DNA of 43,838 nt, taken from the NCBI GenBank assembly GCA_020628165.1, contig JAHDFM010000008.1, positions 69,096-112,933 of the forward strand. The letters run 5' to 3'. The stretch comes from Bdellovibrionales bacterium. GTDB taxonomy: Bacteria; Bdellovibrionota; Bdellovibrionia; Bdellovibrionales; UBA1609. Made by a program: the position numbers and the translations under genes. Each line of letters begins with the position of its first letter. The stretch's first letter is position 1. Below, one piece after another: positions 4,355-21,745 of this stretch. The notes under the pieces were generated by a model. That model was not told the origin of the DNA and did no database searches. It saw only the letters and a program-made list of their open reading frames with translations.

Positions 4355-5053
4355 TTATTTTTTAGTTTTTTTCTTCTTTTTCTTTTTAGATTTTTTCTTT
4401 TTCTTCTTTTTGCCTTTATCTAAAGGCACTTTTTTAACAGGGAAGGCATAGCTCACTAAACGGTAATCGACGTTGTAGTATTGTTTTTTATCAGTGTCTT
4501 CACTCATGCTTGTACTGATCAGCTTGATGTGATCTTTGAAGTTTTTTAAGTGAAAAGACAAGTCAACGACCTGTCTTACATTGAGCTGTTTGAACGAGGC
4601 TTTGATGGCAGTTTGTTGAATGGGTTTTTTAACCAGCGACTTACCAGTGCTTTTAAGATCAGTTTCTTCAATGCTAATGATTTGGTTGGGCAGCAAATCG
4701 AATCGACCCAATGATGAACGAATTTGGCTGGTGACATTGTTAGCGTTGCTCGTCGCAGGAAGTGGTGTTTTTCCTTTTGGCAACTGGCTGTATTTGAATA
4801 AGCTGCGAATGAGATTGCGGTGCTTGTTAAAGTCAGCCACATTGTCAGCAGACGAACTTAAAAAAGAGTAGGGCAAATAAAGTAAAATCAAAACACCAAG
4901 AACGCCTAGAGCAGTTAGAATTATTTTCTGAGTTTGAGCGGGGAGAGTTTCAAACTTTTCCTTGATAGTTTGTACATGTGGGTTTTCTGCAAACTTTTCT
5001 TTGGTCTGAGTGAAGCTATCGACAAGTTTGTCTTTTAAATCGTCAAAGGCCAT
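4355..5053 (-). CDS. gspM: GspM-like inner-membrane platform protein with polylysine tail
   Basis: GspM partners GspL and GspF in the T2SS inner-membrane platform. This 232-residue protein has a cytoplasmic N-terminus (about 42 aa), one membrane helix at about 43-64 (IILTALGVLGVLILLYLPYS), a short coiled-coil-like stretch, and a ferredoxin-like periplasmic domain (VVDLSFHLKNFKDHIKLIS). The call rests on position between gspL and gspN, size and topology; sequence similarity to known GspM is weak. It overlaps gspL by one base (TAATG), so translation is probably coupled. The last 20 or so residues are almost all lysine (KKKKKKKSKKKKKKKTKK), which the predicted topology places in the periplasm. 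The A-rich coding run is prone to slippage. Confidence 0.8.
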   Translation of the reverse strand: MAFDDLKDKLVDSFTQTKEKFAENPHVQTIKEKFETLPAQTQKIILTALGVLGVLILLYLPYSFLSSSADNVADFNKHRNLIRSLFKYSQLPKGKTPLPATSNANNVTSQIRSSLGRFDLLPNQIISIEETDLKSTGKSLVKKPIQQTAIKASFKQLNVRQVVDLSFHLKNFKDHIKLISTSMSEDTDKKQYYNVDYRLVSYAFPVKKVPLDKGKKKKKKKSKKKKKKKTKK

Positions 5054-6833: not shown

Positions 6834-8186
6834 TCAATTTTCTGTCATAAAAACTATTGTCGGTCTTCCTTTAGGTGTTTTTTTCTTGGCTTTGGTCGTG
6901 TTTTTATTCTGATCGTTATTGTTATTAGAGTTATTTGGATCATTGGGGTTTTGATCGTTATTATTGCCGGTGTCGTTGTCGTCTTCGTCTTCGTTTTTCT
7001 CCTCTTCGTCGTCTTCTTCGAGGAGTTTAATATACCTTTCTTTAATGTTATCTAAATCAAAAGTGACGGCCGTTATCTCTCGAGAAATTCCCCCGTAAGT
7101 GCCGATGCTTTTCACCACAAAGTTGTGTTCATTGCCAAACAAAAGAGGAATGCCCTCTTCGTTAAAGTCTTCAATATTAATACCTTGCCCTTTGGGTGGG
7201 TTTTCTAAAAAGCCTTCAAAATCATCGTCATTTTGAAAAGGTCCCCCTTGCTCGGGATCGTTGATTCGCTCTTGAATGGCATCGACAAGTTCATCGGTGA
7301 TTTGACTGTCGAGAGATTTGATCACGTCTTTTTCAGCTGTATTGATGTTAATGCCTTTGATGCCATAAATGGTGACACGTGATTTGAGCATGTTGAAAAA
7401 CTCATTGTTCATACCTGGAATCATGTAGAGTTCTTCTATTGTGCGGAAGGCTTGATTGGGTGGGAACTCATCGGTATTGCTGTCTTCAAACTGATCTAGC
7501 ACCTCGTCAAAATTTGATTTTTCATCACCCCCGAGGTCACTGATCTTGTCATCATCGACCCAGTCTTTGATATTATTAACGAGCTCATTGAAGTCCGTGC
7601 TTCCATATTTGTCGGCAAACTCAGTGTTATTTTCCATTTCAATTTCAAAAATCTTAAGGAGTTGCTTGGTCGTCGCCTCTCGAATTTTTTTAGATCCTGA
7701 GCCCAAATCATTGATATCAATCTTACCACCTTCATCTTGAATTGTGATTTGATAAGATCCTTCAAAGATAGATTCCTCTTCAATGGCCTTGACCTCTCCT
7801 TTTTCGATATTGCCCAAGTCTTCAGGAATGAAGGAAGAGATGGGCCAGGCAAACGGGAATTGCCAGATCAGATCAATCTTTTGCTTGATGGCCTCAACTT
7901 GAGGTCTTGCTATGTCGGGAATATCGGCATCATCTGGGATCAGGGCAATGACTTTTTGAAAGATCAAAATTCGCAACAAAGCGATTTCTAACCCCGACTT
8001 CGCCGCGTAATAGGCGCGCACTTTGTGTATAGACCTTGCAGACACATTGTACTCAATCAGAGTGTCATAGGATATAGAAGTGGCAAGAAAGGTCATGATA
8101 ACGACAAAAAATAAAGACATCAACAAAGCAACACCGTTCCTAGCTTGTTGCTTTAATTTTTTATTAAAATCTATGAACGTTTTCAT
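6834..8186 (-). CDS. gspK: Minor pseudopilin GspK
   Basis: GspK is the large tip pseudopilin that caps the T2SS pseudopilus with GspI and GspJ. The prepilin site is RNG|VALLMSLFFVVIM near residue 18. As is usual for GspK, position +5 is not Glu, which is how the tip subunit differs from the others. The body contains the SAM-like helical insertion and DInDlG-type segments (GGKIDINDLGSG, INTAEKDVIKSL). At 450 aa it is over 100 residues longer than E. coli GspK. Much of the excess is a C-terminal tail made of acidic and Asn/Pro-rich sequence, ending in a basic patch (KAKKKTPKGR). The start overlaps gspJ by 4 bases (ATGA). Confidence 0.93.
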   Translation of the reverse strand: MKTFIDFNKKLKQQARNGVALLMSLFFVVIMTFLATSISYDTLIEYNVSARSIHKVRAYYAAKSGLEIALLRILIFQKVIALIPDDADIPDIARPQVEAIKQKIDLIWQFPFAWPISSFIPEDLGNIEKGEVKAIEEESIFEGSYQITIQDEGGKIDINDLGSGSKKIREATTKQLLKIFEIEMENNTEFADKYGSTDFNELVNNIKDWVDDDKISDLGGDEKSNFDEVLDQFEDSNTDEFPPNQAFRTIEELYMIPGMNNEFFNMLKSRVTIYGIKGININTAEKDVIKSLDSQITDELVDAIQERINDPEQGGPFQNDDDFEGFLENPPKGQGINIEDFNEEGIPLLFGNEHNFVVKSIGTYGGISREITAVTFDLDNIKERYIKLLEEDDEEEKNEDEDDNDTGNNNDQNPNDPNNSNNNNDQNKNTTKAKKKTPKGRPTIVFMTEN

Positions 8187-9214
8187 CCACCACTCCCCTC
8201 TGGGTTAGTTGTGTCTTGGGAGGTGTTGTTTTGATTCTGTTGCTGTTGCTGTTGCTCTTGCTGTTCTTGTTGTTGTTTGAGAGCGGCTTCTTCAGCTCGT
8301 TTTTCTTCTCGAACTTTAGCTATGTTGTTTGGAAAGCGTATGGGTGCAACAACGGTGAGGGCAAATTTTTTAGGTTTTAAATTGGCTTTTTGAGCTTTCT
8401 CAACAACTCCTAAAGTGATTTCAACCACATTGGGAAACTGTCCATTTGAATGTTTACTTTGTTTGTCTGTTGTTTTCCATTCCTTTTTCCAGTCAAGCTC
8501 CTCTTTGTCACCCTCGATGTCACCAGCATACTTCATTTCAAAGCGATCTACATTTTCAACTAGCACCATTTTGTTACCATCTTCATCGACCTTATCATCG
8601 ATGAAGGCACTTGAGCGTCGCCACAAGCATTTATTAACGCTGTCGCCAGTCTTGCGCGACTTACAGTCATCAATAAAATAACCAATTTCTGCTAAGTTAC
8701 TCTCCATACTTTCAGCAAAAGAGCGAATGTTACTGGCGCTGGTAAAATGCAGATTGTCCTCTTCACCTAAAAACTGAGTGTTTGAAACCATTTTTTTTTC
8801 TTTAAATTTTTCTTTGAGGCTAGCACAGGGGTCTTTTTTAGTTTCATTAGTATTGTTTGTTGTGGTTGGGTTCGTAGTTGTTGGAGTTTGTCCGTTTGGG
8901 TTAGTTGTGTTAGGAGTCGTGGTTTTTTTCTTGTTTTCTTTTTCGCAGCGGATGATGCGTTCTTTGAAAGATTCATTGTATAACTCTGCATGGTAATCAT
9001 AGAAGTTAAAGGCTTTTTCGATATCGCGCTTCATAACAGCGAGTGCATCTCTTACAATCGATTCGCGGTCAATACGTGCTTGAATGTTGCGTTTATTGGT
9101 CAGTGAGCTTTGTATAGAACGCGACGACAACAGAGCAAGAGATGAAAGAATTGCTAAAGCGATCATAGTTTCAATGAGAGTGAAACCAGAAGAGGATAAG
9201 TTTTTAGTTCGCAT
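8183..9214 (-). CDS. gspJ: Minor pseudopilin GspJ
   Basis: GspJ is part of the I-J-K tip complex. The start at 9214 (MRTKNLSSSG|FTLIETMIALAIL) is chosen because GGAGGAG lies about 8 bases upstream and the cleavage site follows after ten residues. Upstream in-frame codons would read back into gspI. The 343-residue protein has the N-terminal prepilin helix, a Thr/Asn-rich insertion at about residues 98-124, and a beta-rich body with WKKEWKTTD and VVEITLGVVEKA. The C-terminal tail is Gln-rich, then Asn/Gly-rich. E. coli GspJ is about 200 aa, so insertion and tail account for much of the extra length. It overlaps gspI by 11 bases. Confidence 0.92.
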   Translation of the reverse strand: MRTKNLSSSGFTLIETMIALAILSSLALLSSRSIQSSLTNKRNIQARIDRESIVRDALAVMKRDIEKAFNFYDYHAELYNESFKERIIRCEKENKKKTTTPNTTNPNGQTPTTTNPTTTNNTNETKKDPCASLKEKFKEKKMVSNTQFLGEEDNLHFTSASNIRSFAESMESNLAEIGYFIDDCKSRKTGDSVNKCLWRRSSAFIDDKVDEDGNKMVLVENVDRFEMKYAGDIEGDKEELDWKKEWKTTDKQSKHSNGQFPNVVEITLGVVEKAQKANLKPKKFALTVVAPIRFPNNIAKVREEKRAEEAALKQQQEQQEQQQQQQNQNNTSQDTTNPEGSGG

Positions 9215-9830
9215 CGCCAGAGTCTCCTCCGCCATCGCTATCATCGCCACCACCACCTCCACCGCCGCCAAGAGCAGACGCCAGTCCTCCAAGAGCACCT
9301 AAATCAAGCTCTTTGTTGTAATCAATATGGTATGTTGTGGCTGAAAATTCGATCTCCTTTTTTTTGTGTTTTACAAAAACGGACACTTTGATTTCTTTGA
9401 CCGACTTTTTAATGTGCTCACTCATCTGTTTGAGAATAGTTCCGATGGTTTCGTCGACATTGTCATCTTGTGAGGCGAGAATGGGGCCCAAATCTGGGAT
9501 TTCAAACTCTTGACTCGACATAGTCCAACGATAATTAGGATAGCCTTCAAATGTTCCAGACATTTCCTCTTTAACCTCTTCAAAGCTTTTGTCTTTGTGG
9601 ATGATTTCTATTTCTGTCATTTTTCGTTGCAGGAGTTCGGCAACGTTGTGGTTGAGTTGTGACTTATTTAAGCGAAAGTAATTGCCCGACCAAGAGGTGG
9701 TGAGGGTCACAATTGCGCCTGTTAATATTAGCATTGCGACCATCACTTCGATGAGAGTGAACCCTAATTCAAAAGGAGAGATCTTTGTGTTTTTTTTTAA
9801 ATCATTGTGAGAACTCATCCTTAAATTCAT
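9204..9830 (-). CDS. gspI: Minor pseudopilin GspI
   Basis: GspI nucleates the pseudopilus tip with GspJ and GspK. The prepilin cleavage motif ELG|FTLIEVMVAMLILTG is clear, with Glu at +5. The leader before cleavage is 23 residues if the ATG at 9830 is used and 19 if the one at 9818 is used. The second has AAGG directly before it but at too close a spacing, so the start is unsettled. The body includes the expected Y-R-W strand (YPNYRWTM). After about residue 178 the protein ends in a glycine/aspartate run (GGGGGGGGDDSDGGGDSGD) not typical of GspI. It is cotranscribed with gspH (43-base gap) and gspJ (11-base overlap). Confidence 0.92.
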   Translation of the reverse strand: MNLRMSSHNDLKKNTKISPFELGFTLIEVMVAMLILTGAIVTLTTSWSGNYFRLNKSQLNHNVAELLQRKMTEIEIIHKDKSFEEVKEEMSGTFEGYPNYRWTMSSQEFEIPDLGPILASQDDNVDETIGTILKQMSEHIKKSVKEIKVSVFVKHKKKEIEFSATTYHIDYNKELDLGALGGLASALGGGGGGGGDDSDGGGDSGDAN

Positions 9831-18457: not shown

Positions 18458-20701
18458 TTAAAAAGATTCTACAGCCGGCTCTTCAAGATCTGAACCAAAC
18501 TCATCGTCAAAGTCATCTGAGTCGTCGAGGGTTTTAGGTGGTCTAACACGGTTCGAAGACGACTTTCTTGGTAGAGTATCAATTGTGTATCCGTGAGGGT
18601 CGCGACCATTCATAAAGCTTTGAATGAAGTCAATGCGCTCATTGATTTTTTGATTAACGATGTCTCCGCTGTCTTCATTGTTGCGAATGATTTTTGGTGT
18701 GATAAAAATCACTAAGTTCAGCTTGGTTTTTTCACGGGTTTTACTTTTAAATAGCCAACCAAGTAAGGGAATGTCACCGAGGACTGGAAACTTTCTCACT
18801 CTTTCAGTGTCTTGATCTTGCAATAAGCCACCAAGAACGGCCGTGTCACCACTGTCGACGGCTATGGTGGTGTCTACTTCTCTTTTACTGATGATGGTTG
18901 TTGAGTTAGCTAAGTTTGCTGCTCGCACCTGACGGTCTGAGGCTTGACCCACTTTTTGCACAACCTTCATTTGTACGCGGTCGGTGTCCGGGCTGATGTG
19001 AGGTGTGATTTTTAACTCAATATCAGCATCTTCAAACTGCACGCCTTGTGAGACGACACCGGTGGTGGACGTGTTGTTATTGTTGGCGATAGGAACTTTT
19101 TCACCGACAGAGATGGTGGCCTCTTCGTTGTCCATAACAGTGACTTGTGGACTTGATAGAACGTTACCATTGTTGTTTGATTTTAAGAAGTTCACAAAGC
19201 TCACTAGGCTAGGAATGGAAACTTCTCCTGCTGGGCCTTGAATGGTCACTGTTTCGCCGCTTCCAAAGCCAAGAATGGCTCCACCTAAACCGAGTGGGTT
19301 CACTAAGCTTGCAACGTCTTGAATACCAGAGAAACCTATTCGGCCAACACCGTTGGAGGCTTTGTCAAAATTAAAATAACTGATGCCCCAGTTATGGGAT
19401 TTTCCAGCATTCATTTCCATGATGATGGCTTTTACAAACACCTGGTCACGAGGAATGTCGATTTTAGCAAGCAGACCTTTCATCACTTCGTAATCTTGTT
19501 TGCTCGCAGTCACGATAAGACTGTTGGTGGTTTCGTCAGCCGCAATTTTAACTTCGCCACCAAAAAGAGCTGTCCCTGACCCAGAAGACTTGCTCGATGA
19601 CGATGTTGTCGTAGGAGTTGTCGTTGTTCTTGGGCGTGCGACACCACTTCCACCAGTCGCAGCGTCATTGGCTTTTTTTGCGTCACTGGCAACACCATTA
19701 AGAACGGCTGCAATCTTTTCGGCATTGCCATGGCGAACGTAATACACATACACGCCCCCAGCGTCGTCGGGGTTTAATGGAAAGTCTAACTTTTTAACAA
19801 GAGCTTTTATGCGCTTAATACCGGCCTTGTTCCCCATGATCACAATGGAGTTGGTTCTTTCGTCATCAACAACTAGGGAGTAGGACTCAGCACCTGATTT
19901 GCTGCTTGTTGTTTTTTTTCGGCGGAACCTCGGAACATTTCGTGAGCTTTTTTCACCTTTGTTGATGATCTGTTCGATCAAATTTTTGATATCTTTGGAT
20001 TTAGCATTGTAAATACGAATGACAGCGAGCTGCTCTTCAAACCCGGGCACGTCGAGCTGTGCTAATATACGAGAGATCCTTTCAATGTTAGAACCAAAGT
20101 CAGTGATGATGAGGGAATTGGTAGCCGGGTAAGCCTCTAAGATACCTTGTCTTGATTTTAGGTATTTAATTTTACTAGCTAGATCTCCGGCAGAGATGTA
20201 CTTGAGCTTCACAATGCGAGTGATCACTTGGTCGGTGTTAGGGAAGTAGTCGGTGTAGGTTTCTATGCTGTCGTTTTGGGCCGTGGTGACCTGACGAATT
20301 TTTAAAATGTTAGTTCCAGGCATTGGGACTACGGTTAGGTTGTTCATGGCAAGGGCGGCTAAGAAGGCGCGGTAGGCTTCAGCCACGGTGATTTGCGATG
20401 GAGCTAAAATCGTGATCTTACCTCGGCTCGCTGCTTGGTCGATGATGAAGTTTTTGCCGGTGAGCTTACTGATCGCTTTGACCACTTCTTGGATATCAGC
20501 TTGTGGAAAATCAAAACTTTCGATCACTTCCGGGAAGTTCTCGTTATTGATATCTTCAGGCTGGGCGTTGGCAAATTTCTTTTTTGCGGCAGCGTCTAAT
20601 GGGCCATCTGAGTCGTTGCCACTTTGTGCCGACAAAGGCAAAACAAAAGACAACATCACAATAAGGATGACGGTTTTGATGGTTGAAATGGTTTGTAACA
20701 T
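18458..20701 (-). CDS. gspD: Type II secretion secretin GspD
   Basis: GspD forms the large outer-membrane pore of the T2SS. The start at 20701 (MLQTISTIKTVILIVMLSF) is preferred over a codon 39 bases upstream: AGGGAG precedes it at 6 bases and it gives a clean signal peptide. Domains in order in the 747-residue protein: N0 (IESFDFPQADIQEVVKAIS), N1 (ITRIVKLKYISAGDLAS), N2 (LAVIRIYNAKSKDIKNLIEQ), N3 with a Ser/Thr/Gly-rich insert (VYVYYVRHGNAEKIAAVLNG), then the secretin barrel (VLSSPQVTVMDNEEATISVGEKVPI, ending VLGDIPLLGWLFKSK...LVIFITPKII) and an S-domain-like C-terminus with many acidic residues. It lies 90 bases after gspC. Confidence 0.96.
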   Translation of the reverse strand: MLQTISTIKTVILIVMLSFVLPLSAQSGNDSDGPLDAAAKKKFANAQPEDINNENFPEVIESFDFPQADIQEVVKAISKLTGKNFIIDQAASRGKITILAPSQITVAEAYRAFLAALAMNNLTVVPMPGTNILKIRQVTTAQNDSIETYTDYFPNTDQVITRIVKLKYISAGDLASKIKYLKSRQGILEAYPATNSLIITDFGSNIERISRILAQLDVPGFEEQLAVIRIYNAKSKDIKNLIEQIINKGEKSSRNVPRFRRKKTTSSKSGAESYSLVVDDERTNSIVIMGNKAGIKRIKALVKKLDFPLNPDDAGGVYVYYVRHGNAEKIAAVLNGVASDAKKANDAATGGSGVARPRTTTTPTTTSSSSKSSGSGTALFGGEVKIAADETTNSLIVTASKQDYEVMKGLLAKIDIPRDQVFVKAIIMEMNAGKSHNWGISYFNFDKASNGVGRIGFSGIQDVASLVNPLGLGGAILGFGSGETVTIQGPAGEVSIPSLVSFVNFLKSNNNGNVLSSPQVTVMDNEEATISVGEKVPIANNNNTSTTGVVSQGVQFEDADIELKITPHISPDTDRVQMKVVQKVGQASDRQVRAANLANSTTIISKREVDTTIAVDSGDTAVLGGLLQDQDTERVRKFPVLGDIPLLGWLFKSKTREKTKLNLVIFITPKIIRNNEDSGDIVNQKINERIDFIQSFMNGRDPHGYTIDTLPRKSSSNRVRPPKTLDDSDDFDDEFGSDLEEPAVESF

Positions 20702-20791: not shown

Positions 20792-21745
20792 CTATTCGAT
20801 GACATAGTTATAACTTGAATCACGCCCACCTGAATTTATGTCTATACTTACACTGCTGGCATCCGATTTTAAAACGTTGTAAAGCTCCATGGCTTTAGCA
20901 GCACTGTTCACTGGCTCGCCATTTACACCCTTGATAACATCACCATTTTTAAAACCAAGTTTTTCAAAAATACTACCAGGCTTAATGCTTAAAAATTTAA
21001 ACCCTTGTATAGAGCCATCGGGCCCTTTGTTCGGAGCCATACTTGCTTGCCTTAAAATTTCACCCATACGACGAGTTTGTTTAAGGAAATCAGCTCGTTT
21101 GATCACACGGTTATTGCCTCGGACTTTGACGATGTCGTTGCCAGCTTTTTTAGGGGCTGCTTTGGCTGTTTTTTTGCCGAAGTTCAGTTTGTTGTCTTCT
21201 GGAATTTCTGCATATTCTTTTTTTCTATTTTTTAAATTGCGAAAGATCACTTTTCTACGTTCTACTTCGATAATTTCAATCATCTTTTCAACGTCTTCAC
21301 CAACCTTCCACGAACCTGTTTTGTTGCGATTGCTCAAGTTAAGGGTGGCGATCGATTTTGCAGGGTTGGCGTGAACAATCGTGCCGAGGAGTTTGATTGG
21401 TAAGCGTGTGAGTGACGCTGGTCCGTCGTCATCTTGGGTTTGCTCTTCACCTTTTTTCTTATTGGCCAGTTGAGACAGAGACGGTGGGATTTTTCCGTCA
21501 GAGTTAAAAATATTTCTAGACGCAATCGGCGAGTAGACACTTTTTGATTCCGGAGATTTAAAAATCTTTTTAGTTGGTTTTTTAGGAGGCGCTTCATTGG
21601 GAAGCATGTAAGGGCGAAGGTAAAGGGTGGTGATGTCAGCGACGATGAAACCCAAAAGTAAAACGATGACATATGGAAGTAAAAATTCAAATGCCGGTTT
21701 GGAATTGCTTTTTTTAGAACCAAAAAACTTAGACAATAATCTCAT
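20792..21745 (-). CDS. gspC: Type II secretion protein GspC (PDZ type)
   Basis: GspC couples the inner-membrane platform to GspD. The 317-residue protein has a short cytoplasmic start, one membrane helix at about 24-46 (LPYVIVLLLGFIVADITTLY), a proline/lysine linker and the homology region that binds GspD N0 (SPIASRNIFNSDGKIPP, LLGTIVHANPAKSIATL, about 70-190). A C-terminal PDZ domain follows at about 225-317 (GFKFLSIKPGSIFEKLGFKNGDVIKGVNGEPV). It heads the gspC-gspD pair, which is separated from the gspE-N block by about 4 kb of other genes. It diverges from the FabD-like gene across a 764-base gap. Confidence 0.94.
   Translation of the reverse strand: MRLLSKFFGSKKSNSKPAFEFLLPYVIVLLLGFIVADITTLYLRPYMLPNEAPPKKPTKKIFKSPESKSVYSPIASRNIFNSDGKIPPSLSQLANKKKGEEQTQDDDGPASLTRLPIKLLGTIVHANPAKSIATLNLSNRNKTGSWKVGEDVEKMIEIIEVERRKVIFRNLKNRKKEYAEIPEDNKLNFGKKTAKAAPKKAGNDIVKVRGNNRVIKRADFLKQTRRMGEILRQASMAPNKGPDGSIQGFKFLSIKPGSIFEKLGFKNGDVIKGVNGEPVNSAAKAMELYNVLKSDASSVSIDINSGGRDSSYNYVIE

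Follow-up and report, generated by a model that had tools for sequence, protein, structure and literature searches.

Three consecutive genes for minor pseudopilins in a Bdellovibrionales type II secretion system (T2SS) encode proteins, GspI, GspJ and GspK, that all contain low-complexity sequence, and the question they raise is whether these stretches together form one device at the pseudopilus tip. For type II secretion in general, the way in which this tip engages substrates and the secretin is still an open problem. The window, by which we mean the whole 43,838-nucleotide stretch of DNA that was analysed, comes from a genome of 3.19 Mb (99% complete) and carries gspE-F-G-H-I-J-K-L-M-N on its minus strand, the strand of every feature given below. 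The genes of interest are gspI (9204..9830, 208 residues), gspJ (8183..9214, 343 residues from the ATG at 9214) and gspK (6834..8186, 450 residues); a gspM candidate (4355..5053) has no Pfam match and was recognised by its position and a family-wide alignment of GspM. Because candidates for gspD (the secretin, 18461..20701, the best PF00263 match in the genome) and gspC (20795..21745, PF11356 at E 2e-5, below the curated cut-off) lie further along in the same window, the cluster is one T2SS. Three more secretin-domain genes are found in this genome (C15, C19 and C53; L315-L317). A PF03934 match elsewhere in the genome, in an ORF of 767 residues, was rejected as a second GspK; by eye it is Tex-type-like, with helix-hairpin-helix. 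The named relatives used for comparison are Bdellovibrionales MAGs and Bdellovibrio bacteriovorus.

The low-complexity stretches themselves are real. The Gly/Asp end of GspI (residues 172-208), the Thr/Asn insert (residues 90-130) and Gln-rich end (residues 298-343) of GspJ and an acidic, Asn-, Pro- and Lys-containing stretch of GspK (residues 378-440) are all in frame, and the homopeptide runs use mixed synonymous codons and thus are not raw single-codon slippage. Low-complexity sequence at or above a threshold of 30 residues is found in four of the ten gspE-N products (I, J, K and M), compared with 11 in a sample of 274 ORFs on 20 contigs of this genome, a ratio that we read as "unusual" and not as a probability, the threshold being our own choice and having been set after the tails were seen. 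A Thr/Ser/Gly-rich stretch was also picked up by the low-complexity scan near residues 341-388 of the gspD candidate, and the C-terminus of GspM is an almost pure poly-Lys tail (4358-4438; KKKKKKKSKKKKKKKTKK), the GspM tails of relatives ranging from 5 to more than 150 residues; low complexity in GspD and GspM is compatible with a habit of the lineage. A preliminary description held that known GspI, GspJ and GspK lack such stretches, which is borne out for GspK but overstated for the other two, since by eye both proteins of E. coli K-12 also have hydrophilic ends, of ~20 residues in GspJ and ~9 in GspI. As set out below, the three regions are three different things.

GspK is the clearest case. 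It matches the T2SSK_1st Pfam family over its cut-off (PF21687, 31.7 bits, cut-off 26.2) and NCBIfam T2SS_GspK at E 4e-23, below the equivalog cut-off of that model; as read from the sequence, its prepilin motif (NG, then VALLMSLF of the mature protein) has no Glu at +5. Using an alignment of 48 sequences, AlphaFold2 placed strands at residues 356-364, 367-376 and 443-449 and a helix at residues 378-402, with low confidence at about residues 401-430. The penultimate strand, REITAVTFD (residues 369-377, 7056..7082), falls in conserved columns. It is followed by the predicted helix (residues 378-403, 6978..7055, block pLDDT ~86-91), which is loosely conserved in Bdellovibrionales, with partial column conservation, and by a putatively disordered low-complexity linker (residues 404-440, 6867..6977, block pLDDT 46-58 over residues 401-430) that diverges fast in same-genus comparisons. 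The chain then closes with the final strand RPTIVFMTEN (residues 441-450, 6837..6866, block pLDDT 92). In the 48 aligned proteins a Trp and a Glu near the C-terminus are nearly invariant and the stretch that precedes them is unalignable. Bdellovibrionales GspK ends in a strand of the form R/K-E-I-x-A-I/V-x-Y/F-D, a variable low-complexity region and then G-R/P-P-x-I/V-V-Y/F-W-x-E-x, with nothing beyond, and in farther Bdellovibrionota families GspK closes with a related hydrophobic strand.

The VIA-align superposition of model residues 47-450 on residues 29-313 of 3ci0_K, the GspK of ETEC, gave a Z score of 19.2 and an rmsd of 2.7 over 265 residues, and matched the C-terminus of the model (residue 450) to that of the solved protein. 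The fold of solved GspK, with its alpha-domain and closing strand, is present in the model, and the short turn that joins the last two strands in model systems, which is not a defining feature, is replaced by 63 residues. Given this alignment of the conserved closing strand, the plain short turn of GspK in Nitrospirota (two strands and a short turn, e.g. FSITSTGNVNNSRKTITAIVNRKEKNSEILYWRID) and, by eye, the lack of a long stretch between the last strands in E. coli K-12, the low-complexity sequence of the predicted structure is not a C-terminal tail but a 63-residue insertion at the turn that joins the final two β-strands of the pilin sheet. The acidic Asn/Pro composition reported in the preliminary description thus stands, but the tail does not, its last ten residues being the conserved final strand. 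The distinction matters, since truncating what appears to be a disordered tail would remove a structural strand. With the second half of the insertion at low confidence, no folded grafted domain of the kind that defines modular pilins was found. The window protein is thus a variant of a known component, an otherwise ordinary GspK whose flexible hairpin loop is shared across the lineage, and we found no description of such a loop or tail in Bdellovibrio in the literature searched.

To see how widespread the loop is, we took the conserved Phe in the third-last strand and counted the residues that follow it up to the C-terminus. A GspK gene is present in 238 of 241 sampled Bdellovibrionota genomes and the loop was read in ~120 distinct sequences, with two that have an apparent frameshift at the end (L040 and L077) and one that is truncated (L051) left out of the counts; the end of GspK in the former two is in a different, Ala/Gly/Arg-rich frame, probably owing to a frameshift or a MAG assembly error. 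In 111 of 117 distinct Bdellovibrionota sequences the distance is at least 57 residues (median 84), and the region is at least ~20 residues above canonical length. In most Nitrospirota GspK proteins with that Phe aligned it is ~33-43. Where the Phe is unaligned, as in E. coli K-12 and several outgroups, the distances obtained (51-69) are misplaced and the proteins were read by eye instead. The lineage-wide comparison proposed earlier therefore comes out for GspK on the side of a retained feature. Four sequences from three families, which cluster on the core tree (L231, L232, L234 and L238), keep a short turn, with 34-39 residues after the Phe, and two others lie in between (L233 and L246, with 51 and 54 residues); hence the loop is not indispensable. 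In one clade (L131, L134, L228-L230 and L262), with 107-137 residues after the Phe, the loop site holds a longer and less simple stretch of 75-90 residues with several cysteines, possibly a small disulfide-bonded module.

Is the loop selected for, or simply tolerated? A surface turn that accepts low-complexity insertions throughout the phylum, with no function, is a possible explanation that we consider the less probable one. It would account for a loop whose sequence and charge are unconserved, for low-complexity stretches in other parts of the same T2SS and for the existence of a short-turn clade. It sits poorly with the persistence of the long region across the phylum, reduced genomes included, because deletion bias would be expected to strip dispensable sequence somewhere among the relatives. 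Among the 59 complete family- and order-level GspK sequences that make up our constraint set, none has a loop shorter than 37 residues, and two genome-reduced relatives (G005 and G006, 1.2-1.3 Mb) keep loops of 40-46 residues. The loop has a mean length of 53.8 residues and a coefficient of variation of 0.18 in this set, compared with 0.57 for the GspJ tail, 0.53 for the GspI tail, 0.95 for the GspM tail and 0.22 for the internal GspJ insert; a lower value than that of the free tails is partly expected without selection, since a loop inside the fold can grow or shrink only through indels that keep the frame. Persistence is therefore a stronger point for constraint than the contrast in variation.

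Charge follows a different pattern. Of the 59 loops, 17 are acidic (−3 or below), 28 near neutral and 14 basic (+3 or above), and in the disordered part no conserved residue or charge was found among the relatives compared, so that the acidic character and basic end once ascribed to GspK are not conserved properties of the protein. The presence and length of the loop seem to matter more than its charge. This bears directly on the proposal of the preliminary description that disordered, charged tails of GspI, GspJ and GspK form an electrostatic cloud that touches substrates or the secretin. In the window the GspK loop, the GspI tail and the GspJ tail are all net acidic, and disordered loops of a substrate are known to act as T2SS signals, the secretion of Pel3 depending on them (PMC7949064). 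The predicted disorder also holds for the GspK linker, whose low pLDDT suggests a flexible appendage; it does not for the Gln-rich end of GspJ, which is predicted to be helical. With the sign of the charge differing among relatives, the GspK stretch an internal loop closed by a strand and the long GspI extension specific to this genome, we regard such a cloud as unlikely. An electrostatic pairing of the acidic GspK loop with the poly-Lys tail of GspM at pseudopilus initiation is more improbable still. The charge of the last 40 residues of GspM does correlate with that of the loop in the raw data (Spearman −0.39), but the correlation is lost once an alignment sets the limits of the tails (a Spearman coefficient of −0.15, with p 0.29) and again when phylogenetic contrasts are used (r of −0.11, with p 0.44 by permutation), and GspM was rejected as a partner.

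The companion ends of the other two pseudopilins, GspI and GspJ, are for the most part local or of an ordinary kind. GspJ scores 38.2 bits against PF11612 (T2SSJ), over the cut-off. Its Thr/Asn-rich stretch (8825..8947) occupies the alpha-beta loop that connects helix 1 to the first head strand, with low pLDDT at about residues 101-130, and in most sampled relatives this loop is longer than that of E. coli and of varying sequence simplicity; the insert is probably another appendage like the GspK loop. It is flanked by a Cys pair (C90 and C130 in the window) in all four of the same-genus sequences compared. The Glu/Lys/Gln-rich C-terminal tail of GspJ (residues 298-343, 8186..8323) is modelled as a helix at residues 300-329, beyond which the pLDDT falls to 47-59, and in relatives the tail is 0-77 residues long.

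GspI is over the Pfam cut-off for N_methyl and matches the GspI/XpsI NCBIfam models TIGR01707 and NF047828 weakly, below cut-off; its identity was assigned by gene order, between H and J. Its C-terminal tail with the Gly/Asp extension (residues 172-208, 9207..9317) is the second longest among 55 relatives. In three same-genus relatives the protein continues for only 13-20 residues beyond the last strand and the long Gly/Asp extension is missing, which leaves this part of the earlier picture without support in these relatives. Part of the glycine is explained by gene overlap. The start of gspJ is most likely the ATG at 9212-9214, not the GTG listed mechanically, and gspI and gspJ overlap by 11 nucleotides in the window, compared with a common 4 nucleotides elsewhere; Gly codons near the end of GspI spell a Shine-Dalgarno-like GGAGGA for gspJ (9225..9230), 10 nucleotides before its ATG. 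A simple motif of this kind lies upstream of gspJ in 19 of the 47 loci scanned. The long GspI end would then be incidental in this genome, partly doubling as the ribosome-binding region of gspJ.

Taken together with the structure prediction, the lineage-wide presence of the GspK loop strongly supports a flexible appendage on this subunit. The explanation that we favour, and hold to be somewhat better than an even bet on the basis of alignments and models, is that of an ordinary GspK fold in which a long loop (of 63 residues in the window protein) takes the place of the turn joining the last two β-strands, after which the chain would return to place its conserved last strand in the GspK sheet. 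GspK forms the top of the pseudopilus tip complex (PMC6211770), and because it caps the pseudopilus the loop would be an appendage of the tip, flexible and anchored at both ends. Selection may keep it for its presence and length and not for its sequence or charge. Most likely it would act sterically, or as a contact site of low specificity, within the periplasm or the secretin lumen; the HIJK complex has been reported to contact secreted effectors and is a likely effector-contact site (PMC10191384). A long linker might instead free the last β-strand of GspK for exchange, pairing in trans with another pseudopilin or a secretin domain, so that the tip would be a tethered strand-donor and not a closed cap, an arrangement we think very improbable. 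For the both-end-anchored loop, the consequence is a defined element, retained in a predator-rich phylum and missing from model systems, that can be shortened or swapped, with the short-turn and Cys-stretch GspK families as natural comparisons.

The relation to known systems differs among the proteins. The core profile of GspJ (XcpW, EpsJ) is matched, the GspJ of E. coli K-12 likewise having a hydrophilic tail, and by eye the alpha-beta loop of the window protein is tens of residues longer than that of E. coli K-12. GspK shares with the ETEC protein and XcpX of P. aeruginosa (PDB IDs 3ci0, 5vtm and 6utu) the common pilin sheet, the inserted alpha-domain and the last strand, the solved constructs having 298 and 273 residues and the window protein 450. 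Modular type 4 pilins likewise carry extra sequence on minor pilins located at the tip (PMC10191384). In those proteins, however, folded domains are attached via short linkers, whereas the addition in the window GspK is predicted to be disordered for the most part and sits within the sheet; the GspK family with the Cys-containing stretch is nearer to the modular pilin idea than the window protein.
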